Origin: Ganoderma boninense
Taxonomy: Eukaryota; Basidiomycota; Agaricomycetes; Polyporales; Polyporaceae
DNA length: 64,000 nucleotides
NCBI GenBank assembly: GCA_002900995.3
Contig: CM035315.1
Coordinates: forward strand, 2,263,826 to 2,327,825
Direction: 5' to 3'
Made by a program: the position numbers and the translations under genes. Under the pieces are notes generated by a model. It made no database searches. It saw only the letters and a program-made list of their open reading frames with translations, and was not told the origin of the DNA. The stretch's first letter is position 1, and each line of letters opens with the position of its first letter. Positions 12,107 to 41,300 of the stretch are shown in pieces.

Positions 12107-13595
12107 TCACGACCGAGTCTTCTTGTTGAGGGGACCGGGGGCCTCTGGGTGTGTCGAATGGAATTTCTTTACTACCAGCGGTGCGTTGCTCAGGTCTGCT
12201 GCATCTTCCCAGCTGTCTTGCTCAGGGCCCCATCCCTTCCAGTGGACGAGGTACTGCAGCTTCTTCCATCGCCCATAGCGGCGGGACTCTAGTACTGCTT
12301 CAACTTCGTACTCCTCCTCTCCTTCTACTTCGATGGGAGCCGGTTCAGGTGGGTGTCGACCAGGGAGTTCGCTCTCTTTGTGTGGGAGTAGCAAGGATAC
12401 ATGGAATACCGGGTGCATCGTGAGGTCCTTCGGGAGTTTGAGTTCGTATGCCAGGTTGCCTACTTTGCGTTTGACTGGGTAAGGGCCTGCATAGCGGTCA
12501 ACCAACTTCCTTGATACTCCAGGGACGCGGAAGTTCCTCGTGTCGAGCCACACCTTCTGGCCCTCCTTGAACTCTGGAGCGTCTCGTACGTAACGGTCGT
12601 AGTGCTCCTTCATCCGCTCGGCTGTTAGAGCCAGTGCTGCAGTCGCATCCTCTCGTGCACGTCGTAGCTCCTCACGTCGTTCATCTGCTGTGGGTACTGC
12701 CGTAGACAACATCGGGATGTGGAACTGGGGTTCGAAGCCATACATGAGGTAGAAGGGTGAATATCCTGTCGATGAGTGCGAGTGGGAATTGAAGGCAAAC
12801 TCTGCTATTGGCATCCATTTGACCCAATCATCGCGGTGTTGTGTGCAGTACATGCGCAAGTACGCCTCAATCTCCTGGTTCCACCGTTCGGATTGGCCAT
12901 CTGTCTGGGGATGATAGGCAGTAGACATTGCACTCTCAATGCCAAGTCCCTTGAGGATCGCACGGAAGAGCTTGCTCGAGAACTGTGGTCCTCTGTCAGA
13001 GACTATCTTGCGCGGCAGACCATGAAGACGGAAGTACTCTCGGATGAAGTTGTCTGCAGCTCCTTCAGCATCGATCTCCTCGGTACAGGGGATAAGATGG
13101 ATCATCTTCCCATGTCGATCAACAATGAGCTGTAGTGCGTTGAATCCATCTACCACTGGTAATCCGGTGATGAAGTCGCAGGTTACTACCTGGCCAGGGC
13201 TGTCTGGGATCTCGTTGGGTTGTAGGGGACCATACGGCTTTGCATGCGAGTTCTTGCCACGGCGACAGGTGTCGCAGGTCTCCACATACTGCTTGACAAA
13301 CTTGCCCATGCTCGGCCACCAGTAGTTGCGTGAGACGAGCTCCAGTGTCTTTGCCTGTCCAGGGTGTCCAGCGGGTGGGAGGTCATGGTGAATGCGTACA
13401 ATCTCTGCTCGTAGTGCATCATCCTTGGGGACATAGACTCGGCCACGGTAAAGAAGTAGGCCTTGCTCCGTGTTCCAGTCCACCAAGTCATTCTGTAGAC
13501 GAGCGGGTCCTAGGCTGTTGAGCTTGCCAAGTGCATCCGCCACCTCCTGTTCGCGTTCTCCACACTCCCGAAATACGTCGAAGCAATGCCTTCTC
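12107..13595 (-). CDS. Pol 3' half: integrase with chromodomain
   Basis: Open frame ending at 12107. It opens with an H2C2 zinc-binding module (H-x3-H of HHDLPPAGH, then CDTC). The integrase core follows with D (TCDFITGL), D (VSDRGPQF) and E of the DDE triad (GQSERWNQE). A GPY/F-like module comes next (RYAGPYPVKRK). The C-terminal chromodomain has YLVHWKGW and an acidic SWEDAADL. The enzyme inserts the cDNA; chromodomains of this class steer insertion toward histone marks. The frame is offset from RNase H by one base in the T-run near 13572. A normal chromovirus pol would be continuous here, so this copy probably cannot make a full polyprotein without slippage. Confidence 0.9.
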
Positions 13596-15728
13596 CGGAA
13601 CTACTGACAAGTGACCTCGTTTTGCTGCCATGACCTGGAAGTGGCTTGGCTGCAGCATGGTACGTCCGAGGTTGTCTTCAGTGTCACCGTGCAGGTGGTC
13701 TGGCCGTCTCGACAGGGCATCCGCTCTACCATTTGAGGTTCCTGGCTTGTGTGAGATGACAAAGTCGAACCGTGACAAGTACAGGGCCCATCGTGCCTGT
13801 CTGCGCGTGAGGTTTTGTGCCGTACGCCAGTATTCGAGGTTCTTGTGATCTGACTGGATTTCGAACACACTAGGCAGCCCTTCAAGGTAGTGACGCCAGG
13901 CCTGCAGGGCTCGGATGATTGCCAACATCTCCTTGTCATAGATCTCATAGTTCCGTTCAGCATCGCTCATTGACTCAGAGTGGAAGGCTACAGGGTGCCA
14001 TTTGCCATCCTCTGCTTCCTGAGACAGGACTCCGCCGGTTGCATAGCCAGAGGCGTCGACTTCGATGCGAGTCCTACGGTTAGGATCATACATCCGCAGG
14101 ACAGGGCTTTCTACGAAGCGTCGTTTGAGCTCATCGAAGGCAGCCTGCTCCTCAGCTTCCCATTTCCAGGGTGCCTTGCCAGTGAGACGGTCTAGGGGTT
14201 TGCAGACTGCACTGAAGTCCTTTATGAACCGCCGATAGAAGTTCGCAAATCCACGGAACTTTCGTACATCTGAGGTGTTCTGGGGAACAGGCCATTCAGC
14301 GATACCCTTGACCTTCACCGGGTCCATCTCCACCTGGTTCTCTGAGACGAGGACACCGAGGTATTCAACCTTGGGCTGTTCAAACTCGCACTTCTCCGGT
14401 TTGCAAAACAGGTCATGCTCTGCTAGACGCTTCAGGACTTCACGTACAAGTGTCCGATGCTCCTCGAGGTCGTTGGTAAAGATGAGGATGTCGTCGAGGT
14501 AGATGGTTATCTTGCCGAGTACGATGAGGTCCTTAAAGATGTCGTTCATGAGTGCAGAGAACGTGCTAGGCGAGTTGGCTAGCCCAAAGAACATGACGTT
14601 CGGTTCGAACAGTCCTCGGTTGGTCACAAAAGCTGCCTTCCATTCATCACCAGTCTTTATCCGTACATTGTTGTACCCCCAGCGTATATCGAGCTTGGTA
14701 AAGTACTTGGCCCTTTTGAGTCGATCCATCAGGTCCGAAACCAATGGCAGTGGGTAACGGTTCTTAATGGTGATGTCGTTCAGTCGTCGATAGTCCTGTA
14801 CTGGACGCAGACTGCCATCCTTCTTTTTGACGAAGAAGAAGGGTGAGAACATCGGTGACTTCGACTCCTGGATGTAACCTTTGGCCAAGTTCTCGGTAAG
14901 GAACTTGTCTAGCTCGGTTTGTTCACTGGGCGACAGGGGGTACACTCTGGAATGGAACATCTTTGCGTCAGGTACGAGTTCGATTGCGTGATCGTAGGGG
15001 CCATGCTTGGGTAAGCGTTCAGATGCCTCTTTCGAAAAGACCTCAAGATATTCGTGGTACTGCTTGGGTACGATCTCCTCAACCGGGCGGATCTCCTTCT
15101 TCTGATACTCCTGTTCTGCAAGCTGCTGTGAATACGTGTGTGTTGCTGAAACAAAGAGTTTGGGGGCATTGCGAAGGGTCCGTCCAGTAGCGAGTGCCTC
15201 GAGAAAAGATTCCTCGGTACCATCCCATTCCGGTAGAAAACCTGGTGGTGGAGGCCTGACCTCCTCCTCTTCCTCCTCCTCGACCATCACGGCCGTACAT
15301 ATCCTTCCCACCGTCTTAGCCTTCCTTACCCGTCGAGGACCGCTGCGCGCCGTAAGCCGTACCTCCGTATCACGCGCTTTGGTCTCAACAGGTTCGGATG
15401 CCTTCTGGTGAGTCGAACACGTCTCTGGACACCTTGAGAGGCGTAGCGAGCCACGTTCCCAGTCTATCTCCGGGTTGTGCTCGCGCAGCCAGTCTAGTCC
15501 AATGATAGCATCCTCCTCTCCGATGTCTGTGACTACAAACACCACCTTCTCTCGGTGGTCTCCAATTGCCATGTCCAACACGGCTACCTCCGTGATCGTT
15601 CCATCACGGTTCTCTGTCCCATCAATGTTATACAGCGGGATGGGTTTGGCCAACCTCCTCGTGGTGACCCGATTCCGTTCTACGAATCGTCTGCTCAAAA
15701 ACTTGGTAGTAGCTCCACTATCTACCAT
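13488..15728 (-). CDS. Pol 5' half: protease, reverse transcriptase, RNase H
   Basis: Frame starting at an ATG directly before the aspartic protease motif DSGATTKF and open upstream of it to about 15894. Domains in order are: protease (flap region IIGLDWL); an acidic linker; reverse transcriptase with FFFVKKKDGSLRPVQDYR, FGLANSPSTF and the catalytic YLDDIL; and RNase H with DASGYATGGVLSQ and a late ADALSR. All catalytic residues are present. The last ~20 codons are a wrong-frame tail caused by the one-base shift near 13572. Confidence 0.92.
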   Translation of the reverse strand: MVDSGATTKFLSRRFVERNRVTTRRLAKPIPLYNIDGTENRDGTITEVAVLDMAIGDHREKVVFVVTDIGEEDAIIGLDWLREHNPEIDWERGSLRLSRCPETCSTHQKASEPVETKARDTEVRLTARSGPRRVRKAKTVGRICTAVMVEEEEEEEVRPPPPGFLPEWDGTEESFLEALATGRTLRNAPKLFVSATHTYSQQLAEQEYQKKEIRPVEEIVPKQYHEYLEVFSKEASERLPKHGPYDHAIELVPDAKMFHSRVYPLSPSEQTELDKFLTENLAKGYIQESKSPMFSPFFFVKKKDGSLRPVQDYRRLNDITIKNRYPLPLVSDLMDRLKRAKYFTKLDIRWGYNNVRIKTGDEWKAAFVTNRGLFEPNVMFFGLANSPSTFSALMNDIFKDLIVLGKITIYLDDILIFTNDLEEHRTLVREVLKRLAEHDLFCKPEKCEFEQPKVEYLGVLVSENQVEMDPVKVKGIAEWPVPQNTSDVRKFRGFANFYRRFIKDFSAVCKPLDRLTGKAPWKWEAEEQAAFDELKRRFVESPVLRMYDPNRRTRIEVDASGYATGGVLSQEAEDGKWHPVAFHSESMSDAERNYEIYDKEMLAIIRALQAWRHYLEGLPSVFEIQSDHKNLEYWRTAQNLTRRQARWALYLSRFDFVISHKPGTSNGRADALSRRPDHLHGDTEDNLGRTMLQPSHFQVMAAKRGHLSVVPEKALLRRISGVWRTRTGGGGCTWQAQQPRTRSSTE

Positions 15729-15886
15729 GGCAACAATGTCCTTGTGCCGCTGCTTGCCGATAAGTCGTACTGGGATATGAAAGTGTTGTCCATAATGGTT
15801 GACTTCGTATACGAAGGACGAACGCAGTACTGCAAATCGACTGTTACTGCTCGAGCCGGCACGCGCAGCGTCCAGTGCGGCTCGAA

Positions 15887-16036
15887 TCAGAAACCCTCCT
15901 CCTTGGCTAGTGTGGCCGCGGCAAGCCTTTCACCAAGCCGCTTGATCTCTACCTGCAACAACTGCACTTGCAGCGCTTCGATCCGCGCTTTCAGTGTTTG
16001 GAGTTGTTCGGCCTGAGATGGCGGGATGGCGGACAT
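15887..16036 (-). CDS. Small leader ORF in place of Gag
   Basis: ATG at 16036, 49 residues, a leucine-rich amphipathic helix (LQTLKARIEALQVQLLQVE) ending at a TGA. The protease frame overlaps its 3' end by one-base offset. Upstream, the same frame continues without ATG past a TAG near 16155 with a basic, charged sequence. No capsid major homology region or CCHC knuckle is visible. This may be the remnant of gag after an internal deletion, or a coiled-coil product of its own. Confidence 0.4.
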   Translation of the reverse strand: MSAIPPSQAEQLQTLKARIEALQVQLLQVEIKRLGERLAAATLAKEEGF

Positions 16037-24132: not shown

Positions 24133-26244
24133 CTAGGCATCCTTAGGTTCCTTGAACTCACGGACAGTCCAAACCCCCTTCTCTCCCGGCTTGAGGTACT
24201 CGACTTTCCCGTGTGTCGGGTATGTCTCTTCCCAGTCGCAGTCGGTGATCTTGCACCACACGACGACCTCGGTCTCACCCTTGGCATTTGTCTTCTTCTT
24301 CCCATCTCTCGACGACAACGTGCCACATCGAGGGCATTGAACACCAATGTCCAGTCCGTTCGGACGCATGGTGTCATGGGTCCACCGATATTCGACTACG
24401 CAAAGCTTCGGCGGTGAATCCTCCTCTTGTCCATAGTAAAAGTGAAACAGCGGCGTGTGACGGGCGATAAAGACAGCTTGCTCCAGACGAGTCGCCATAG
24501 CGTTGTTGTTGAGAGGCATTCCTTCAATGAGCACTTGGTGCACAAAGTTGTAGAAGAACAGAGACGTCAGGGACGGCTGCAGTTCCTTGGTTGAAAACCC
24601 GAATGCGTGGGCAACTCGAATCCTATCCACACATACCATCAGACGCGTAAGACATTTCGGAGTGCATATCTTACCCGGTTAGTGCGGACATCAGCTCCGT
24701 GCACGCATTGTGATGCATGACGAGCGCGCCACAGGCAAGCATTCCTACGTAGAGCTCGTTGTTGCCCGTAGACGCGATCTGCGCAAGCTTGGGAGTAATC
24801 ATGTCTTTCCACCACTACATAAATGCATTAGTATGTGACCGTGCATCTTCTCGTATGGCTTACTTCTCCTACGCTGCAAGACGAGTAATTCTCTCCATAA
24901 TACAGGTCGCCGTACTCGTCATGTGAATGGGTATAGATGAACATGAAGATTCGTGCATGAGTCACCCTTTCAACGGTCCGTCAGGGCGAGCTTGAGACAA
25001 TCTAGAAATAAATTACGTACTCGCCCAAGCTGTTGAGATGCTTGCTAGTGCGCGCGCGAAATTGCGCCTCAGGCGTTGATTTGAGGGGGTTGCACTTGAC
25101 GTTCGGATCCGGTTCCGGAATGTTGAATGGTAGGTCGATGTAGCGTAGGTTGTTCCTTGCCGGGCCATCAAACCAAGGCGTCAGTAAGTGGTACACGAGT
25201 CTGGCTGGCGAACTCTTCTCTCGCAGCGTGGCCAGCCGCACGTTCAAAATAACCAGGGGGCGAGTGTCTACTCGACTGTGCTGAGGTCGAGTCGTTGACA
25301 TCGTGAGGGGAACCCACTCCGGAAAGTAAGGACGCTCGGTTCCCGGGTAATATAAACCCTTCGCTTGCGTTAGCGATAACTCGCATTAGTTTTCAGAAGA
25401 CGGACTTACGAAGTATGGAACCGCAGGTTTGTATTTCGGCTCTGGCTTCCCTTTCTGGACATGCTTCCCATTCTTGTTAGGCTCGCCCTTCGGGGCATCG
25501 GGCTGCTTCGGAGCGGGATGTCGACCCTTGGCTACGACGGACGTCGAGAGAGCGTTGCCCGCCCCCTCCGCCGGCTTCGCAACCGCACGGGTCTTCAGGG
25601 TATGGCAGGAAGGGCAACGGAAGTGCAGCGTCTCCAGGGTCTCCACCTGCAACGAAGCTATCTGGGGGGCGTGCGACATGCACATGGCGCGCCCGCACCC
25701 TTCTTCGTCGCAAGTGATCAGACTGCCTCCATTTTGACAAATGAAACAGAACTGTATACGCTGTTAGGCAGGTGAACAGGATAATTGCGCGGAAGAACAT
25801 ACCACATCCGAAGTCTCAGCATAGTTCAGTGGACCAGTCGGTTCCTTCTCCTTCGGTTCCTTCTCCTGCCCTTTCTTCTTGGACTCGCTGGTGGACGTCT
25901 TCTTAATGTTGGAGTCCAGGTCCTTCTGGTCCTTCAGTCCTTCGTCGAGCTCCTGCTCAGTCGCGGACCCTGTGATCTTGGCACGTTTGGTCTTCGCTTC
26001 CCTGGCAGCTACGACCAGTTGGGCATCTTAGTCGCAAGAAGTGTTGCAAGGACTTACGTGGTTTGTGTAGGTTTCCCAGTTGTTCTTCCTCACCCGAAGA
26101 AACGTACGTGGGTTCCGGAACTGTTGTACTGGGGTCAGTATGGCTTGTCAAAGTGCAATAGCGCAGGAACAAGGACGAACTCGGCCGCTTCCGGGATGCC
26201 TTGCCTCCTGTGCTTCGATGCGCGGTCTGCTTCGTGCGTGCCAT
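24133..26244 (-). CDS. Histone H3-tail mimic / PHD-like finger / CHAT-like protein, 610 residues
   Basis: Seven exons, right to left: 26058-26244, 25803-26026, 25410-25760, 25021-25358, 24864-24966, 24675-24814 and 24133-24622. They sum to 611 codons with every junction in frame. Residues 1-15 read MARTKQTAHRSTGGK, the H3 tail with K4, S10, K14, R17 and K18 kept but R8 and K9 changed to H and R. A lysine/glutamate-rich linker follows. At ~138-190 is a cross-brace zinc finger (CFIC, TC, GC, CMSH, CPSC). Residues ~255-450 fit a CHAT/caspase-like fold, with a candidate His in FIYTHSHDEYG (~380) and Cys in YVGMLACGAL (~429). A C-terminal zinc ribbon (CPRCG ... CKITDC) ends it. The H3 tail is seen directly; protease assignment is inference from the His/Cys strand pattern. 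Role unknown: chromatin-mark decoy or a chromatin-sensing effector are possibilities. Confidence 0.75.
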
Positions 26245-26559: not shown

Positions 26560-27271
26560 GAAGTGCGCGCCGGTGGGCGACGGTCGTCGGGCTTGACACG
26601 GTGGTGTCCTGTCCCGGCGGCCCACTTCTCTTTTTCCTGGAAGTGCGCGCCGGTGGGCGACGGTCGTCGGGCTTGACACGGTGGTGTCCTGTCCCGGCGG
26701 CCCACTTCTCTTTTTCCTGGAAGTGCGCGCCGGTGGGCGACGGTCGTCGGGCTTGACACGGTGGTGTCCTGTCCCGGCGGCCCACTTCTCTTTTTCCTGG
26801 AAGTGCGCGCCGGTGGGCGACGGTCGTCGGGCTTGACACGGTGGTGTCCTGTCTGGCGGCCCACTTCTCTATTTCCTGGAAGTGCGCGCCGGTGGGCGAC
26901 GGTCGTCGGGCTTGACACGGTGGTGTCCTGTCTGGCGGCCCACTTCTCTATTTCCTGGAAGTGCGCGCCGGTGGGCGACGGTCGTCGGGCTTGACATGGT
27001 GGTGTCCTGTCTGGCGGCCCACTTCTCTATTTCCTGGAAGTGCGCGCCGGTGGGCGACGGTCGTCGGGCTTGACACGGTGGTGTCCTGTCTGGCGGCCCA
27101 CTTCTCTATTTCCTGGAAGTGCGCGCCGGTGGGCGACGGTCGTCGGGCTTGACACGGTGGTGTCCTGTCTGGTGGCCCACTTCTCTATTTCCTGGAAGTG
27201 CGCGCCGGTGGGCGACGGTCGTCGGGCTTGACACGGTGGTGTCCTGTCCCGGCGGCCCACTTCCGCTGGTT
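26560..27271 (+). repeat. Minisatellite, nine 79/80-bp units
   Basis: Units start at 26560, 26640, 26720, 26800, 26879, 26958, 27037, 27116 and 27195. The first four are 80 bp (TCCCGGCGG, CTTTTT); the next ones are 79 bp (TCTGGCGG, CTATTT). Units are otherwise almost identical. Each junction contains CACTTC and GAAGTG as an inverted pair around the T-rich spacer. The array lies about 315 bp upstream of the H3-mimic start codon. Reading frames through it change with the unit length and are not evidence for a repeat protein. Confidence 0.97.
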
Positions 27272-27735: not shown

Positions 27736-29705
27736 CTATTCATCGCCGTATAGCATGCTGAGATCAATTACCGTGCGCCCATTCTCGACCGATTCTGCCT
27801 CTCGCCAGTTCAAGTTAACTTCGGTGTGCTCCACCTTCACCTTCTTGGCATTCCGCTCCCCTAGCACGCTCCGTTCGCCCGATACGATCGACTCCTGCTT
27901 GGCTTCAGCCTCGCTGGCGGCCGAGATGGTTGACGTGTTCGTGGAGGCGCATGGCAACTGTGCAACTTGGCTGCGTACCGCCCCCGGGTGCCAGGATTCC
28001 ACCGAGGAAGAGCGTGAGCGAGTTTCAAACTCGGCAAGGTACGCCATTGCCGAGTCATGGTCTGCGCTGGCAGTCTTCGAAACTGGCGCCGTAGATGATC
28101 CCTTTCGGGCACGCTTGGCTCCAGTCTTCCCAGGTTTAGATCTCGGTGTGCGGAGTGCTTCGATCTCCACGCCAAGGTGAGGCATGCCGATGACCCCGGG
28201 TATACGGACGAGGAGCGTGTGCGTGGAAGCGGGGATGGGTATGTTGGCCCGGATCATGAAACGTTCCCAATCACTGAGAGCGTCGACATAGACCTCCACG
28301 GTTGGCTCGTGGCGTGCGCGAAGGAGCTCGAAGATCTCGTGCGTCAGCCTCAACAGACAACTCTGTGAAGCCACCCCCCCTGGCCCCTCCGTACCCTCGT
28401 GAATGATCTAGGTAGCAAGATCAACATTAAATGGCAGACGAATACCGAATGCACGAACCTTGATCGTAGTGTCCTCCATCGCCGGCTGGTTGGTCTAGTA
28501 ACAGCCAGTGACATTAGCCGGGAGTGCGTACGGTCAGAAATTCACATTACTCACGTCGTGCCAGAAGACGATGCGTATGTACTCAGGTTCGATCACCTGA
28601 CCGTGAATGGCCTTCTTCTTTGCCTTGTCGGCGGTGAAAGCCTTGCGGTGGCCGTCCGGGCTCCGCATGGCCTGCAGCACGCGTAGCTCAGTTCCGAAGT
28701 CGAGGCAATGTCCAATAAAGTCACGTCGAACGAGAAGGATGTGGGTCTTCATGTCGATGTTGATCGGTCCAATGCCGGGACTCCATGCATTCCTCTCGAT
28801 GCACCACGCCTTCGCCTGAACCTCGTCGCCGTTGCAGATGTCAGAAAAGATGTCATGGTCAGAGAGGTAGAACGCCTTGGATGAGTGCACGTGCAACTCG
28901 AATGTGACGGTCGGTTCATCTTCCTAGTGCATTTCCAGCTGATTCAGTGCACGTCCTGCCCAAATGAGTATAGGTGGACTAACTTTATACCACAGAATGA
29001 CTTTGATAAGTTGGGCAGGGCTGGTAGCCACACTGCCGCCAGTGGAGGACAGAGAGGCGGCCGGTTTCTGAGAAGCGGTGAGCGGAGGGGTGCGATGTAC
29101 TGTGAGCGAGCAACGCACCTTTGCGGAACGCCCAGGGTGTGATGCCTTCTGCACGTCTTTCTCGTGTTCACGAAAGGCGTCCGTGCGCATACGGTCGATG
29201 GACGCCATTACCTTCGCCTGTTGAACCAGGGCTTTCTGCGACTGTATACTCTCGCGCTTTGACTGAAGCAGAGCGAGCTTCAGGGCCTTATCTTCCTCCT
29301 TCTGGGCTTCAGCCTCGAAAGATGCCATGGCGTTCTCCTCGAGCTGCTTGCGTATGGCATCTGCAACGACCGGCGATGGGCCGATCTGTCGCGGGCGAAA
29401 TATGCTTTGGCACTGGTTGCACTGTTCAATTGCGGGCGAAGGATGCGTGAGTCGAAGGGCTTCTTCATTCGTAATAAGCTCACCTTGAACAGCCACATGC
29501 CAGCCTGCTCGGCTTTGTATGTGAGGAAGGCCGAGAAGGTGCCTGACGGAAAGTCGCAGGAAGGACATTTTTCCGGAGGTAGGGGGATGCGGTTCGTCGC
29601 GTCTATATGACACAACTGTCGCACTATGGGACAGTACGCACTCTTCTTGGTCTCCTTGTAGTCCCGACGCCAAATGACCAGACGGGGGTGGATGGGAGGA
29701 GCCAT
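27736..29705 (-). CDS. Zinc-ribbon/coiled-coil protein with two repeated unnamed modules, 563 residues
   Basis: Exons, right to left: 29484-29705, 28984-29421, 28555-28923, 28459-28494 and 27736-28362; all are whole codons with GT..AG introns. An N-terminal zinc site is formed by EKCPSCDF and, across intron 1, CNQCQS. A glutamine/lysine-rich coiled coil follows (~residues 90-160). Then come two related modules. Each starts with a strand ending in tryptophan (KVILWYK; RIVFWHD) and ends ~90 residues later with an LLVR motif plus a conserved glycine/glutamate (LLVRRDFIGHCLDFGTEL; LLVRIPGVIGMPHLGVEI). The C-terminus is basic then acidic (KPGKTGAKRARK). The same module recurs in the neighbour 30401-31434. 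Function unknown. Confidence 0.6.
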
Positions 29706-29915
29706 GAACAACCGGTGTCGTGCTAGTTGACGATTCTACAGTGCGCACGGGTGTAGCAGCGAGACAATCGAAGGGAAGGGGGGCAGGGTCCAAGGGGGGG
29801 CGCTGAGGAGTGCCTGGACATGCTGGCTGCCCGTTCGCCTTTTAATGTGGACCGGATCACTACAAAATTTCTACCGTGGCAATTTAGATTTGGCCCGTTA
29901 TGTGCAGATTTCAAT

Positions 29916-30372
29916 CTATATATGGTCTACATCAATGGGGTTGGACTTGTCGCCCAGCACCGATGGCTCCGACTCGAAAAGGTCTGGAGGGAGCACCACA
30001 CGCCAGGCCTCGTCGACATCTCCCAGTGGCATCCCAGAGCGTTTTTTCCACCTCAGGACCCTCTCTACGTCACTAACCCGTCCCACGAATGCAACCTTGG
30101 TTTTCTTAGTGTCGTGATACTGTGTCGTATTCAATACATGCTCGCCGCTAGCGTGGTCCGGATAACTTACCGTTCGCACATGGTCGGGAAGATGCTGAGC
30201 ATCCCCATGGCGCACGGACGTCTGGTCGGTACCCTGCATGAGCATATGTACAGCAGCGCCATCGTCGACGACCCACGAGAATACATGTTAGCTCATCAAC
30301 CCGCCCTAGATAATCCCACGCAGGCATGCGCACCTCGCCCTCCTCATTGTTTGCATGTGCCTTCACTTCCAC
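29916..30372 (-). pseudogene. Orphan exons of an unidentified minus-strand gene
   Basis: A frame near 30280-30372 (SPVEVKAHANNEEGEVRMPAW), another near 30180-30240 and a last one to the stop at 29916 (KTKVAFVGRVSDVERVL, then DVDEAWRVVLPPDLF) look coding. They are separated by plausible GTAAGT..CAG borders. I find no start codon in frame. They may be a downstream extension of the gene at 30401-31434 in another splice form, or a truncated gene. Confidence 0.35.
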
Positions 30373-30400
30373 TGGCGACTTGGCACTTGAAGTTGATCCC

Positions 30401-31434
30401 TCAGCTATGCTCTAAGGCAGGACGAACAAGCATTCCTATAAGGTGAACAGACCACTAAAGCTATAAGGCTGGCGTTCCATACCTTGCGGCCGCAGGGATG
30501 ATAAACAAGCGAGCGTCTCCCACCACCACGCTTCTCCATAAGACGTCGCGGAGGAGAACATTCGTAGATCCCCTGTTGAGTCCATCAGTTCATGTATTCA
30601 ATCAATGATATGCATGTTACACTTGCCGCGTGGAGAAGGGGTTCCTCGAGGTCCTGCTGGAATCGCTCAACCTGCGCCTGCAATGCAACAATCTCCCGAC
30701 CGAGGCCAACAGTATACCTCACTGCTACTCGCCTCAGCAAGACGGATCGCTGGTCTTGCGGTAGTCGAACTGTGTCCGTGGCGGACATCAGTGTCCAGCG
30801 CATGAGGTCAAGATCCCACATGTCGAAAGCGAACGCCCCATCAAGATGAGATGTTATGGTGGTATCGATGGACCATTTTACCTCGAACGTCTTCGTCATA
30901 CAGATGGCGAACACGACAGGCAGTGAGCCGTCCTGGGAGGAAGTAGCTTGGCATACCAAGATAATATTTAAGGCGTTGAGACCGACCTTATGCCAGAGAA
31001 CGACGCGCTTCTCCACCAAATACTGCTTCTGGACCGGGGTGATGAGCTCCGATGCGGGAGTTTGAGGTTCGTATGAAGGGAGAGGTAGATGCTGGTATAT
31101 GTTCTCTAGCTCGGCGCCGAAGTCTGGACAACGGGTCACACCTGGCATGCGCATGAGAATGGTGTCCTCCCCCGTCGGGATGACGATATCTTCATCAATG
31201 CATAGGGCATTCCACGTCCCCGACTCGACGTTGAAGACGGACACGTAAGTCGCCTTCGGGTGTGAAGAGCAGACTGACTGAAGTTGACGGAGTGGTATTG
31301 TCGCATTGGTTGCGCAGTCGATTTGCTGCTCGATGGGGGCCACCTTGTTCTTCCGATGCGTTGCATGATCAGCTATGCTAATTGACTCATCAACAGTAGC
31401 TCACCTGGACCCAGAGTACCACGATGACAGCCAT
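30401..31434 (-). CDS. Unnamed module protein, 291 residues
   Basis: Exons, right to left: 31405-31434, 30623-31343, 30483-30572 and 30401-30435, totalling 292 codons with continuous frame. It opens MAVIVVLWVQ, matching the 'strand ending in tryptophan' start of the modules in 27736-29705. Near residue 85 it has the closing motif LMRMPGVTRCPDFGAEL. A second start-like strand (KRVVLWHKVGLNALN) follows, then a long helix near the C-terminus (REIVALQAQVERFQQDLE). No catalytic motif is seen. It lies in a run of same-strand genes and shares its module only with its neighbour, which suggests duplication within the cluster. Confidence 0.55.
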
Positions 31435-36505: not shown

Positions 36506-38305
36506 GCGCAGACTAGAAGCTGCGCAGATGACTGACCTGGACCTCTTCTATTCCGAACCAACGATGGTGTCAATGGGTGTGAGGTACACGGCTCTACGGA
36601 TGCCTGCACGCTAAAGGCCCAGCGAGAGCGACGCACTCAACGTGGCGATCAACAGAGCACGGAGCATGTACATACCTTGGAGTATGCGTCATCCGCATAA
36701 CGATTGAGGCTTCTATGCCTGCCAGGTGTAACCGTCGTCTGAAATGAGGAAAAGTAAGCGGCCGCCGAGTCAAGCTACCAATTGATAGTCACCTGCAAAT
36801 GGATTGGGGGCTTGACACTGCACAGCAGCACCGTCCTGAGGTAGAGCTTCTCTGTGAAACACCCTTGAGAGGACCAGGAAGACTATCAGCACACGAACAT
36901 CATGGAACCGTATCGCACAGATCCGTCAGCATCTTGGCTTGGTGCGATAGGAAACGTGAAACGGTGATCCATACCTGCTGAGCGGCGCGCCCGAGCCTAA
37001 TATCGGGATAGGATACAACCCTTCAGCACTCCTTCTTGAGGGTTGACGAGCTGAGCACGCTTGAATAGGCGAGCGAAAACTAGCGGTGTGTATCGGATAC
37101 ACGCCACCGAATTCTCGTGAGACAGAAACGAGCGAGCAGATCGTACGAGTAACGGCTCCGCTCAGCTGTTCCTTTTGCTGATCACTGCGGGGCATGGAAG
37201 AACAGTCAATGTAATTGCACACATGTCGAGGCCTAGCATGGACCGAACTCACATAGCGACCAAATCCGCGAGGATTAAAGGGCTGATGAGGGCGACAATG
37301 CGATCTGGTCGTCACGTTGGCCCAACTTCATTTATTCACAGGTGGACTGGTGTAACGACACTCACTTGTGTTAACCAACAGAGACACACGGAGAGGTAAT
37401 GAGGAGTAGGGAAAAGACGGTGCGGATTGACGTTCAGATGGTGATCAAAGAGAGGGAAGGGGAGGGAAGGATCGCGGATGCAAACTGCCGAGGACGACTG
37501 CTCGGGAATGCTGTCAATCAAAACTTGGAGCTCCGCCACAACTTACTGATATCCGGGGCTGCTGAGTAATGCGGGAATTAACCGCCCAATACACGTGGCC
37601 TGCAATTTGGGCACGATGTTGGAGAAGCGACGCCGGATCCAACGTCGGTGAGTGGCGACAGACTATGCTGCCAGCCAGATGGTGCATGCTCGTGAGACGT
37701 AGTCTGTGGTAGTCGAATCCTCCAGCGTGCGTGATGGCCGCTAGGAAAATCTGGGCGCGCGCCTACCGCGTCCGAGAGCCTTCGCGCACCTTGCGCGATG
37801 ACGAACATCCGCCGCGGCTCTCATTCCTGGGTCCGCGCGACCCCTGTAGCCGAGGGGATATGTAGGCGCGAGGCCCGCAAGAGGATCGCATCTCCTGCCT
37901 GCCTCCGCACGCTGCCTGCAGGTAAAATGTGTTTCGGTCTTGCTGCCCTTTCCCCTCGCTCACGTCGCCGCACGGTGCCCGCAGAGCTTTCATTTGCTAC
38001 CCACCATCCCACCCTACGCAAAGGCGCTGGTACATAGATCTCGTACCTACTTTCACAGCTACCCAGCTCTGCTCGGAAATGCCATCTTTCAGGGCGCCCC
38101 AGCGCCCCAGCGCTCGCCCGCCGGGGGCGCCCAGCTAACTTACCACCGCGACCGTCGCGAACCTAGAAAGCGCCAGAGGATTTGGTACAACTGAGCGCTC
38201 ATCCAGCGCGTCCGCAGCACGTCTTCATGGTCTTGACCTCAGCGGACCCCTGTACCCTCCGTAACCCGTTTGCCTTCACCCACTCGCCTCAGACACCGAA
38301 CCACT
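36506..38305. other. Intergenic between divergent genes
   Basis: Possible 5' exon(s) of the minus-strand gene at 36506-36740 and the promoter of the KDZ gene on the right. No other gene or repeat is recognised; a short CGCCCCAGCGCCCCAG tandem occurs at 38095. Confidence 0.4.
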
Positions 38306-41300
38306 ATGTTGCCCGGCCTAAAATCGATCAAAGAGAACCTAGCCCGCAAACGCGCCCGACAGGATCCCCCGACGACTCCTAAAAAAAATTCCCTAAAGCA
38401 TTTGTTTCAACGTTCCCCCCATGCCAGCGCGCGAGGAGCCCAGGAAATCCCAAATGCAAGGCGACCGGACTCATCACTGGCACGTATTGCGTTCCCAGAC
38501 CACCCATCATCCACCCTTCAAGCACCTAGCGCATCCACGTCGATCACGCCCGCAGAGCACACCGTGGGGGATGCCGATGCACGCTTCTATACAGATGCCG
38601 ACGCAAGTGAAGACGGAGAGCCGGGAGACGAAGATGGCATAGATGTTAAATATCATCTGGTGCGACTTCAACCCACCTCGATTATACGTGCACTTAACGC
38701 GGCATCAAAGCCCTCTACCAGATGCGCGAAGTACCTAGATGACGGCCATGCCGTTCATGCCAGGAACCTCCTACACGAACTTGAAGCCCCGCCGCAATCA
38801 CTACATCAGTGCCCAAGATGTTCTGCGCCTCTTACGTGCCACGTGCCACGCTTTCGAACACTATTCCGATGTAAAGACTGTGCTGTGTCATCGTTACAGT
38901 GCATTCGATGCATCTACGCTTCCCACTCTGATCGCCCTTATGACCGGATACTAGAGTGGCGTGTTACGGAACGCTTCTGGTCAAAGGTCACGTTGCCGGA
39001 ACTTGGCTACGAGTACCGACTAGGTCACGATGGTCAGCGATGCAAAAATGCCCTCTCAACCGCGAGTAACGTAGTGGTTATTCACGAGCACGGAGTCATC
39101 TCACTGCCAATTGTGTACTGTGCCTGCCCTGATGGAAGGTCGGAAGTAGACCAACTCGTACTGGCCGGTCTCTGGCCTGCAACCTGGGAACGACCACAAA
39201 CCGCGACAACTCTTACCGCCCTCGAGACCTTTCATAGCTTGAATCTCAATGGGCAACTAAACGTACACGACTACCTCGCGCACATCAAAAGGCAGACTGA
39301 TAATGTCGGAGCTGAGGATGTGTTGGTGAGCTCTTTTCAGACCAATGGTTCGCATGAATACGGGTAAGTCTATATCTCACGCCAAAACGTCGATACAGGA
39401 TCGCTATCGTGAATTCAACAACTCTTACCGCCTATTCACCTATGTCCGCGCATGCCGACGTGCAGGAGTTGAACCTGGGCGCAACATGGCAGTGGGCAGC
39501 CTAGCAGTGCTCTGTCCGGCCTGCCCGCAGCCGGACCGCAACATGAGAGTAGGTTGGGAAGATCGCGACAAGGACTACCAGTAAGTGTTACGACTGGCTG
39601 TCGAGTAAGATCAGGGAGGAGGCTTACGAGACGAGCAAGGGCGTCGACGAGCACTTGTGCAGCGAGAGCGGAGCAGGGCTCGACAGTCAGGCTGGAGACA
39701 AGATGTATTGAGCGAGTAACTAATGAGCGAGAATACAGCGAGGCTTACCTGGAGACAAGAGGTCGAAACTGAGGTCTCCAGGTAGCGAAGTACAGGCCTT
39801 ATATACATGTAGCGGACAATGGGAACCGGGGACAATAGGTAACTATGGACACGGGAACCAGTGGAAGAACAATGGTATGTAGTACAATGACGACGGGAAC
39901 AATGGGTAACAGGAGTTATTGTACTGCGAGAACAAGGGACAGGTTTGCTAAACAACGGAGGACAATAAGGACGACGCGGGAGGCAAACAGTCCGAAAAGG
40001 GAAAGAGAGACGCCGGGGTAGGCGCCGAGCGTGCCGTTCATGACAGTAAGACGTGCAACATCTACAGCCCAGCTCGTATCTGACTTAGACGCTTTAAGAT
40101 ATCTCGATGCGCTTCACTACTCGATTGACGGCAACTTCCACTTCAACATGAAAGCCAAGCAAACGGACCCGAACGACTTTCCACTTACCCACGCAGCAGC
40201 CTACTTCATGCATGAATCAGACTTCAAAAAAGTCCTGCTCAACGCGCCACCGCCAAAGCATGAAGTAGGATATCATCTGCCTAGTCACGATGCATCTGCC
40301 AGTGCTGAATGTGTACATTGTTCTAGACTTCGACGTGCAACGAGTTCGCCGCCATGGGAACGGGCAAGTACAAGGGCCCAGTGTCGGGTATCGTCGCTGT
40401 GGTTTGCCGGCACATGCTGGTGATGCAAGGCGGTGTTGTGGATCTCAAAAAAGCCGAAAGGTGGGACGTCACCGATGAATAACCATGCGAAATGCTAATG
40501 ATTAAAAACAGGTACATATATGTGGACTTCGCCAAAGTATCCGCGCTTCAGCGGTACCTGAAACTCAAGCTCCTCGTTGGGTCCTACGACATCTACTGTC
40601 AATACATCATCCATTTTCAGGAACGCCTACAAGCCGAGTTTCCGCCTGAGATGCTGGACGAGTTGGAGTCGATCCAGCACGTGAAGCTCCCTGACATCAT
40701 CGCAGCCGTTGGCAAGTATCATCTGAGCATGCACAAACCCGCATGTCGCCCTTTATTCTCGCTGCATCATCTCCCCGGGGCATGCATGGATTGTGGCGAA
40801 ACATGTGAACGCCTGTGGGGAATTACTAACGCAGTCTCACGCCGCACCAAAGAAATGTCAGTAGGGCACCGTCAGGACGCTCTGAATGATCTTTATGGAG
40901 ATCACAATGTTCGTCGTGTCCATGGATTAGGTAAGCCGCAACGAGTGAAGATACAACACGGTGTTGACCGGCATGACATAGCTCTTGAAATATCTCATAA
41001 ACTCAACGTGGCTGAAGAACGATTACTCGCAACTACTGAGTATCTCGAGACTGTTGAGGCATCAGTCGAACACCGATTTCCAAAGGGCACACTGGCGAAG
41101 TGGCGTATGGCTCATGCAGCGTGGACGAGGGATGTCATAGACATCGCAAAGCACAAAGACCTTGGCAACCCGTTCGAGCCACCTATGGAAGCAGGTATCC
41201 TAGCACTCCTCAGCCGAAACAGCCATAGAAACTGATGTCTTGGCGCAGCGCTCAATGTTTCGACGATCGCCGAGCAGCTCAATGAGAAGCGTGCCAGGGC

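Follow-up and report, generated by a model that had tools for sequence, protein, structure and literature searches.

A mushroom protein family that joins a histone H3-like N-terminal tail to a PHD-like finger and a caspase/CHAT-like core

Introduction

The imitations of the histone H3 tail that are known to us are short motifs that act on another protein. For example, the SNAG domains of GFI1 and SNAIL imitate H3 towards LSD1; their sequence differs from ARTKQTAR, and their carriers are transcription factors that have neither a reader nor a protease in the same chain. PAF15 and DPPA3, each with the sequence VRT, likewise offer an imitation of H3 residues 1–3 to the PHD finger of UHRF1 (excerpts of PMC11187062). 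Here we describe a gene in a 64,000-nucleotide stretch of Ganoderma boninense DNA (assembly GCA_002900995.3, contig CM035315.1, positions 2,263,826 to 2,327,825, forward strand; hereafter, the window). Its product has N-terminal H3 imitation in common with SNAG domains; in contrast to the short motifs that those excerpts describe for PAF15 and DPPA3, it places up to 20 H3 residues in the same chain as a PHD-like finger.

Two further groups of proteins bear on this architecture. The PHD fingers of CHD4, BHC80/PHF21A, AIRE and TRIM24, which read H3 that is unmodified at lysine 4 (H3K4me0), resemble the finger of the window protein in profile and cysteine pattern, whereas in the latter the zinc-ligand order is altered and both a protease fold and its own H3-like peptide are attached. 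The CHAT proteases (fungal NLR-CHAT and TPR-CHAT, bacterial SAVED-CHAT) share with the window protein a caspase-like fold and a His/Cys pair; their sensor is an NLR, TPR or SAVED module, whereas here there is an H3-like tail with a PHD-like finger, and no match to Pfam CHAT. Taken separately, H3 imitation, K4me0 readers and CHAT-like proteases have all been described; the union of tail, reader and protease in one chain appears to be new, in that we did not find it among the top-ranked results from the open-licence PMC literature (preprints and most subscription papers lie outside that scope).

A seven-exon gene with an H3-like start

The H3-tailed gene occupies 24133..26244 on the minus strand of the window, and its seven exons encode 604 residues. 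The model is based on splice signals and full-length homologues: all introns are GT..AG and 42–54 bases long, and the joined open frame ends in a stop. A first-pass annotation, made from the letters of the DNA, had given these same coordinates and seven in-frame exons; its length of 610 residues needs correction. Exon 1 (26058..26244) encodes the H3-like start (residues 1–20, at 26244–26185); the N-terminus reads MARTKQTAHRSTGGK, and the longer stretch MARTKQTAHRSTGGKASRK. When aligned with H3 (ARTKQTARKSTGGKAPRK after the Met), 13 of the first 15 residues are identical, the differences being R8H and K9R, and K4, S10, K14 and K18 of H3 are retained; the count of 13, K9R and the retained residues had been read correctly in the annotation. 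There is no histone domain in the window protein by Pfam scan, and no histone fold follows the tail.

The remaining exons, all on the minus strand, encode a charged low-complexity linker (exon 2, 25803..26008), the PHD-like finger (exon 3, 25410..25760), the first half of the caspase/CHAT-like core as aligned to an AlphaFold2 model of the relative P0002 (exon 4, 25021..25358), the candidate catalytic His374 (exon 5, 24864..24966; codon 24927..24929), the candidate catalytic Cys423 (exon 6, 24675..24814; codon 24731..24733) and a C-terminal zinc ribbon (exon 7, 24133..24622; residues ~531–576 at 24220..24357). The ribbon contains CPRCG and CKITDC, and its Pfam match (Zn_ribbon_Com, expectation value (E) 4.5e-5, residues 531–545) was the only one above the cut-off in the window protein. 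Because the Pfam scan gave only this ribbon and a weak DNMT3 ADD match (E 0.21), fold and profile comparisons were needed for the other domains.

The H3-like start is not a chance resemblance, since a search of the 55.6-Mb genome with the back-translated pattern of MARTKQTA, two mismatches at most being allowed, gave 17 matches as compared with one for the reversed control pattern. Nine of these matches are exact. Three are true H3 genes, recognised because they continue into APRKQLA or are intron-split, and the other six we assign to the H3-tailed family: four are joined directly to the gene body, and two are assigned by position, at C13:457293 and C22:30328, where the tail lies ~5 and ~7 kb, respectively, before a gene body on the same strand (a linkage deduced from strand and order). 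The eight inexact matches include two family copies with arginine at position 4 and five in a dispersed repeat. In total the family has at least 10 loci in its own genome, two of which (C12:2.96 Mb and C16:91 kb) showed no tail in the stretch examined. When the genome was searched with the first 81 residues of H3, the family loci matched over residues 1–26 at most, with the exception of C13:457293, which has a weak 38% match over residues 1–71 that includes two stops.

In the two copies with arginine at position 4 (C2:171465 and C1:1926043) the charge is kept; as judged from their sequence, they are natural versions closed to lysine methylation at that position. The dispersed repeat is ~1.5 kb long and contains a decayed H3-tail exon (e.g. 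MARTKQSARQYVGDIAPRAKLG), with the rest of the gene absent; its five copies (L049–L053, at C2:3851k, C11:3092k, C6:1484k, C17:75k and C1:5070k) are ~78–99% alike, and one is in pieces.

The family extends into two mushroom orders

A search of 5.8 billion proteins yielded 13 relatives, from Ganoderma, Dichomitus, Fomitopsis and Rhodofomes; we looked up the placement in Polyporales for two species, and we take the remaining source species to belong there too. A second search, started from P0012, added P0014. A profile search matched 43 proteins: 10 already found, the new P0015, P0016 and P0019, the fragments P0017 and P0018, and 28 proteins in which Pfam recognises a histone domain (P0020–P0047); this search is incomplete, in that the members P0009 and P0012–P0014 are absent from its matches. 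The resulting 19 family proteins (P0001–P0019) represent the genera Ganoderma, Dichomitus, Lentinus, Fomitopsis, Rhodofomes and Pleurotus. The most distant in taxonomy, P0019, is from Pleurotus djamor, a member of the Agaricales. With its first 30 residues removed, and compared with a profile cut before the finger, P0019 matches at E 2.5e-21 (best of 200 shuffles, 0.12); in a profile comparison the probability is 99.3%. Its tail begins with MARTK, continues with a few differing residues and then KSTDGNAPRKRL; as a whole (MARTKIAAASKSTDGNAPRKRL) it is one residue longer.

The first-pass annotation had proposed a search of fungal proteomes for open reading frames with the H3-like start, which turns out to be family-wide. 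Among the 17 near-complete database members (the two fragments being left out), MART stands at residue 1 in 13, ARTK lies inside a longer model in two, only the later part of the tail (KSTGESAPRAKL) is present in P0015, and P0009 has no tail. One Ganoderma sinense member, P0007, bears the database name 'peptidase S53 domain-containing', though most of its model is the H3-tailed family; the name probably reflects a gene-prediction fusion. We also considered capture of the gene by viruses, and rejected it: 27 viral stretches matched a pattern, none was confirmed, and the family has no relative encoded on any viral contig.

Constraint is strongest on the tail

We aligned 22 tails, 14 from databases and eight from the organism's own genome, the distant tails at C13:457293 and C22:30328 being among the eight. 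The table takes in P0004 (internal start) and P0016 (Val rather than Met before the tail), and leaves out P0009, P0015 (a fused model with only the later tail part), P0019 and the repeat copies; the tails are not independent, because P0002 and P0004 are 99% identical. Within this set A1, R2, T3, A7 and G12 are invariant, and Q5 is identical in 21. Position 4 is K in 19, R in two and T in one (P0013). Further along, R8 is kept in 17, and T11 and R17 each in 19, of the 22 tails. The other lysines are often replaced: K9 is present in three tails (elsewhere Q, R, V, N, D, H or E), K14 in nine and K18 in five. This pattern fits the earlier proposal, derived from the window protein, that a K4-type mark could be written on the tail and a K9-type mark could not.

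The codons for residues 1–8 in the eight own-genome copies have a proportion of synonymous differences (pS) of 0.67 and of nonsynonymous differences (pN) of 0.08. A comparison by region, of the window gene with the four of eight copies in which the tail was aligned (one being the tail at C13:457293), gives pN values of 0.03–0.05 for the tail, 0.09–0.19 for the finger, 0.09–0.24 for the C-terminal ribbon, 0.16–0.39 for the protease-like core and 0.22–0.54 for the linkers, with pS of 0.36–0.79 throughout. No other part of the protein is as constrained as the tail in these comparisons, and what is preserved is its protein sequence rather than its DNA sequence. Its signature across the family is one of purifying selection.

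These data bear on a further explanation, namely that the tail is left over from a captured H3 exon, or serves only for nuclear import, and plays no part specific to H3. Similarity to H3 does stop near residue 20, as for a captured exon, and H3 tails can promote nuclear import. We nevertheless consider this explanation very improbable, given that residues 1–8 are nearly fixed amid abundant silent changes, that the start is partly common to Pleurotus, in another order, the body alone being related at E 2.5e-21, and that lysines 9, 14 and 18 are often lost, which speaks against a plain import signal.

The finger resembles readers of unmodified H3K4

The finger (residues 135–187; 25593..25751, minus strand) has the arrangement C-x2-C, GG, CD, C, C-x2-H, C-x2-C-H, and shares a C-x2-C-x-GG-x-L/I-x-CD-x-C pattern with H3K4me0-reading PHD fingers. 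There is no Pfam PHD match in the whole window protein; when finger pieces are scanned alone, eight of 15 match Pfam PHD (best E 6e-4). These 15 pieces, which constitute our finger alignment, come from the window protein, 12 of the 17 members (all except P0001, P0004, P0011, P0016 and P0019) and the fragments P0017 and P0018. A profile built on the finger and compared with all PDB sequences matches CHD4 first (2l5u, E 1.2e-4) and then PHF21A/BHC80 (2puy, E 6.1e-4), followed in order by TRIM24, TRIM33, ZMYND11, AIRE, TRIM66, NSD3 and SP140; 33 PDB sequences reach E 1, and the lower ones are mixed zinc fingers. BHC80, AIRE-PHD1, CHD4 PHD1/2 and TRIM24 belong to the subfamily that reads H3 unmodified at K4 (excerpts of PMC3471955), and, from what is given in part of PMC6979384, TRIM66 and CHD4 prefer H3K4me0. 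Hence the cross-brace finger that had been proposed for this protein gains support from the profile matches, and in sequence it is similar to readers of H3 that lacks modification at K4. Zinc ligands 5 and 6 are swapped (Cys then His) in 12 of the 15 pieces, and all ligands are Cys in the other three, from Fomitopsis and Rhodofomes; we call the finger PHD-like because this order is non-canonical. Furthermore, the whole alignment, A2, matches both H3 tails (E 1.9e-6) and CHD4 (E 4e-6), and so the family protein holds a ligand together with its likely reader.

The core adopts a predicted caspase-like fold

AlphaFold2 models of two relatives, the first being P0002, both contain a caspase/CHAT-like core with a caspase-like alpha/beta fold, albeit from shallow alignments of 17 and 16 sequences; by alignment to the P0002 model, the core of the window protein spans ~residues 283–509. 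A comparison of the predicted fold with CHAT and caspase folds, as the first-pass annotation had suggested, was run on these models, and for the first of them the best structural match is SAVED-CHAT, followed mostly by caspases. We set aside Foldseek rows for azoreductase, Egt2 and aminotransferases as common alpha/beta arrangements. The two motifs that had drawn attention to a His/Cys pattern, FIYTHSHDEYG and YVGMLACGAL, are both present in the window protein, and the candidate catalytic pair is conserved: the aligned column is His in all 17 members and Cys in 16, with a gap in P0019, which has VCKGA elsewhere. In the P0002 model the pair follows the neighbouring strands 320–326 and 369–375. 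The earlier suggestion of a caspase/CHAT-like region is thus supported by the relatives' models and by the conserved pair. Pfam CHAT (PF12770) has no match in the window protein, in 11 members or in the genome in six frames, and is not among 25 of the 28 families shown for the 17 members; we therefore class the family as CHAT-like by fold only. The models suggest that the core is a putative cysteine protease with a candidate His/Cys pair.

A proposed latch between tail and finger

What the analysis shows directly is how the protein is built, how widely the family occurs and that it is under selection. Beyond this we hypothesize, as the most economical reading, that the tail is a ligand of the finger, either within one chain or from one molecule to another, and that the protease is controlled through this contact; we put the probability of this at roughly 40%. 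Removal of the Met would expose the ART(K)Q end of the tail, which would bind a finger, either in the molecule that carries it or in an adjacent one; the contact would hold the protease off or hold protomers together. The latch would open when real H3 tails displace the protein's own tail or, alternatively, when the cell's own H3K4 methyltransferase methylates K4; the His/Cys protease would then be switched on, much as CHAT proteases are in the cell-death pathways of fungi and bacteria. A latch is consistent with the strictly N-terminal position of the tail, with an invariant ART followed by a largely conserved K4 and Q5, and with the finger being second only to the tail in constraint. More tentatively, the protein could be a chromatin-gated caspase, in which a counterfeit H3 tail is the built-in ligand of its own H3K4me0 reader, and methylation of the counterfeit K4, or competition from real or freed H3, decides activation; such a protein would be a nuclear sensor of chromatin integrity, wired to cell death in mushrooms.

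Several observations weigh against the latch. None of the 15 finger pieces has the canonical C4HC3 order of zinc ligands. The two copies with R4, and P0013 with T4, could not be switched by K4 methylation. P0009 has a finger without a tail, P0004 a tail without a finger, and in P0001 and P0016 the finger is missing its initial portion; perhaps these are prediction errors. The relation of the core to CHAT proteases is also looser than the first model implies: Foldseek TM-scores (template-modelling scores) to 8tl0 are low, 0.21 and 0.24, and for the second model 8tl0 ranks only 18th, behind MALT1. Neither AlphaFold2 model of the relatives docks the tail: the first ten residues have a mean predicted local distance difference test (pLDDT) of 45 and 41, and form no strand, just a short low-confidence helix. 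Docking was judged from pLDDT and DSSP, a weak test given the shallow alignments and the long linker.

The lack of docking in the models also counts against the possibility that the protease cuts H3 tails and that its own tail is a pseudosubstrate, blocking the active site until removed. A caspase/CHAT-like fold with a His/Cys pair and a long conserved tail stretch would suit such an arrangement, which leaves both the H3-reader-like finger and the extreme N-terminal position unexplained, and we think it quite improbable.

A further difficulty for the latch is that conservation of the tail extends past the usual PHD footprint (T11 in 19, G12 in 22 and R17 in 19 of 22 tails), and a reader with a longer footprint may be involved. 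The same observation, that H3 1–12 and partly 15–17 are covered, would favour action in trans: the cell's H3 machinery (COMPASS, an LSD1-type demethylase or other PHD proteins) would read, write or bind the tail, and would either carry the protease to chromatin or be sequestered by it. There is precedent in the H3-like motifs of DPPA3 and PAF15, which bind the UHRF1 PHD finger in competition with H3, according to the portions of PMC11187062 that we cite. We regard action in trans as somewhat unlikely, given that the protein already has its own K4me0-type finger and that the other main modifiable lysines are mostly lost.

Scattered copies and fragments are common for conflict genes, and the ten scattered own-genome loci, some of them fragments, together with the dispersed repeat that contains tail exons, could point to an integrated decoy: the tail would bait an H3-modifying or H3-cutting factor of an invader, and its alteration would lead the CHAT-like domain to trigger cell death. 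By analogy, a death switch is a plausible output for the latch as well as for the decoy, because fungal CHAT proteases act through gasdermins, which they activate, in allorecognition death (excerpts of PMC10197012 and PMC12881547). No Pfam gasdermin was found among 20 window open reading frames scanned (19 of 46, plus one shorter), a weak test in that introns break frames and Pfam may miss fungal gasdermins. Against a decoy, no attacker of this kind is known here, and K9 is mostly not imitated; we consider an integrated decoy unlikely. The first-pass annotation had suggested a decoy for H3 modifiers or an effector in a conflict with mobile elements, a reading that we rank below the tail–finger latch, since a likely reader for precisely this tail is already part of the protein.

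Surroundings of the gene

Just upstream of the H3-tailed gene, at 26560..27263, is a tandem array of 8.9 copies of a 79-bp unit. This unit occurs at no fewer than five genome places (the others being C1:3127838-3128341, C9:2979772-2980314, C13:437071-437150 and C13:447925-448073), four of which are directly upstream of family genes (the window gene and the copies on C1, C9 and at C13:434k), in the same orientation to the gene; the site at C13:448k precedes the lone C13:457k tail by ~9 kb. Alignments between loci give 82–95% for the arrays, higher than the 63–77% for the genes. The unit forms a hairpin and folds well as plus-strand RNA, with a z-score of -3.2 in the window and -3.65 on C9, but only -0.27 on C13; on the other strand in the window it is -1.8. 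As regards an RNA role, there was no Rfam match, no compensatory base change among six types of the unit, and no 13-mer of the array that recurs elsewhere in the window. Splice-like signals on the plus strand flank the array, at ~26524 (CAG/GTAAGC) and ~27370 (TTCTGTCTAG/GGATAT), and similar GTGAGCAG donors occur at C9, C13 and L057; these signals may mark a spliced transcript that runs divergently, on the strand opposite to the gene, and has the hairpin array in its intron.

Further upstream, open frames with repeated modules (27739..31400, minus strand) make up a gene that is duplicated together with the H3-tailed gene on C1 (74–76% identical as protein); on C9 a short match to it precedes the family copy. 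The Lentinus tigrinus model P0015 includes, as a fusion, a similar stretch (41% over 49 residues, E 7e-9); the upstream gene itself has no informative Pfam match. Elsewhere in the window are a piece of KDZ (Kyakuja-Dileera-Zisupton) transposase with a CxC2 cysteine cluster (38237–41235, plus strand), and retrotransposon pieces with reverse transcriptase, RNase H, integrase and chromodomain (12107–15929, minus strand), presumably of the Ty3/gypsy kind from their domain order.

Implications

Genes of this family combine about 15–20 residues of the H3 tail with a K4me0-type finger and a caspase-like fold, a combination that is kept under selection and has relatives in two mushroom orders. One practical consequence is that antibodies to the H3 N-terminus may detect H3-tailed proteins in polypores. 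The latch itself is directly testable with the tail peptide (ARTKQTAHRSTGGK) and two small domains. We know of no trigger for many of the fungal CHAT proteases; if the latch is true, it would connect the H3K4 code in fungi directly with proteolysis and, perhaps, with programmed cell death.
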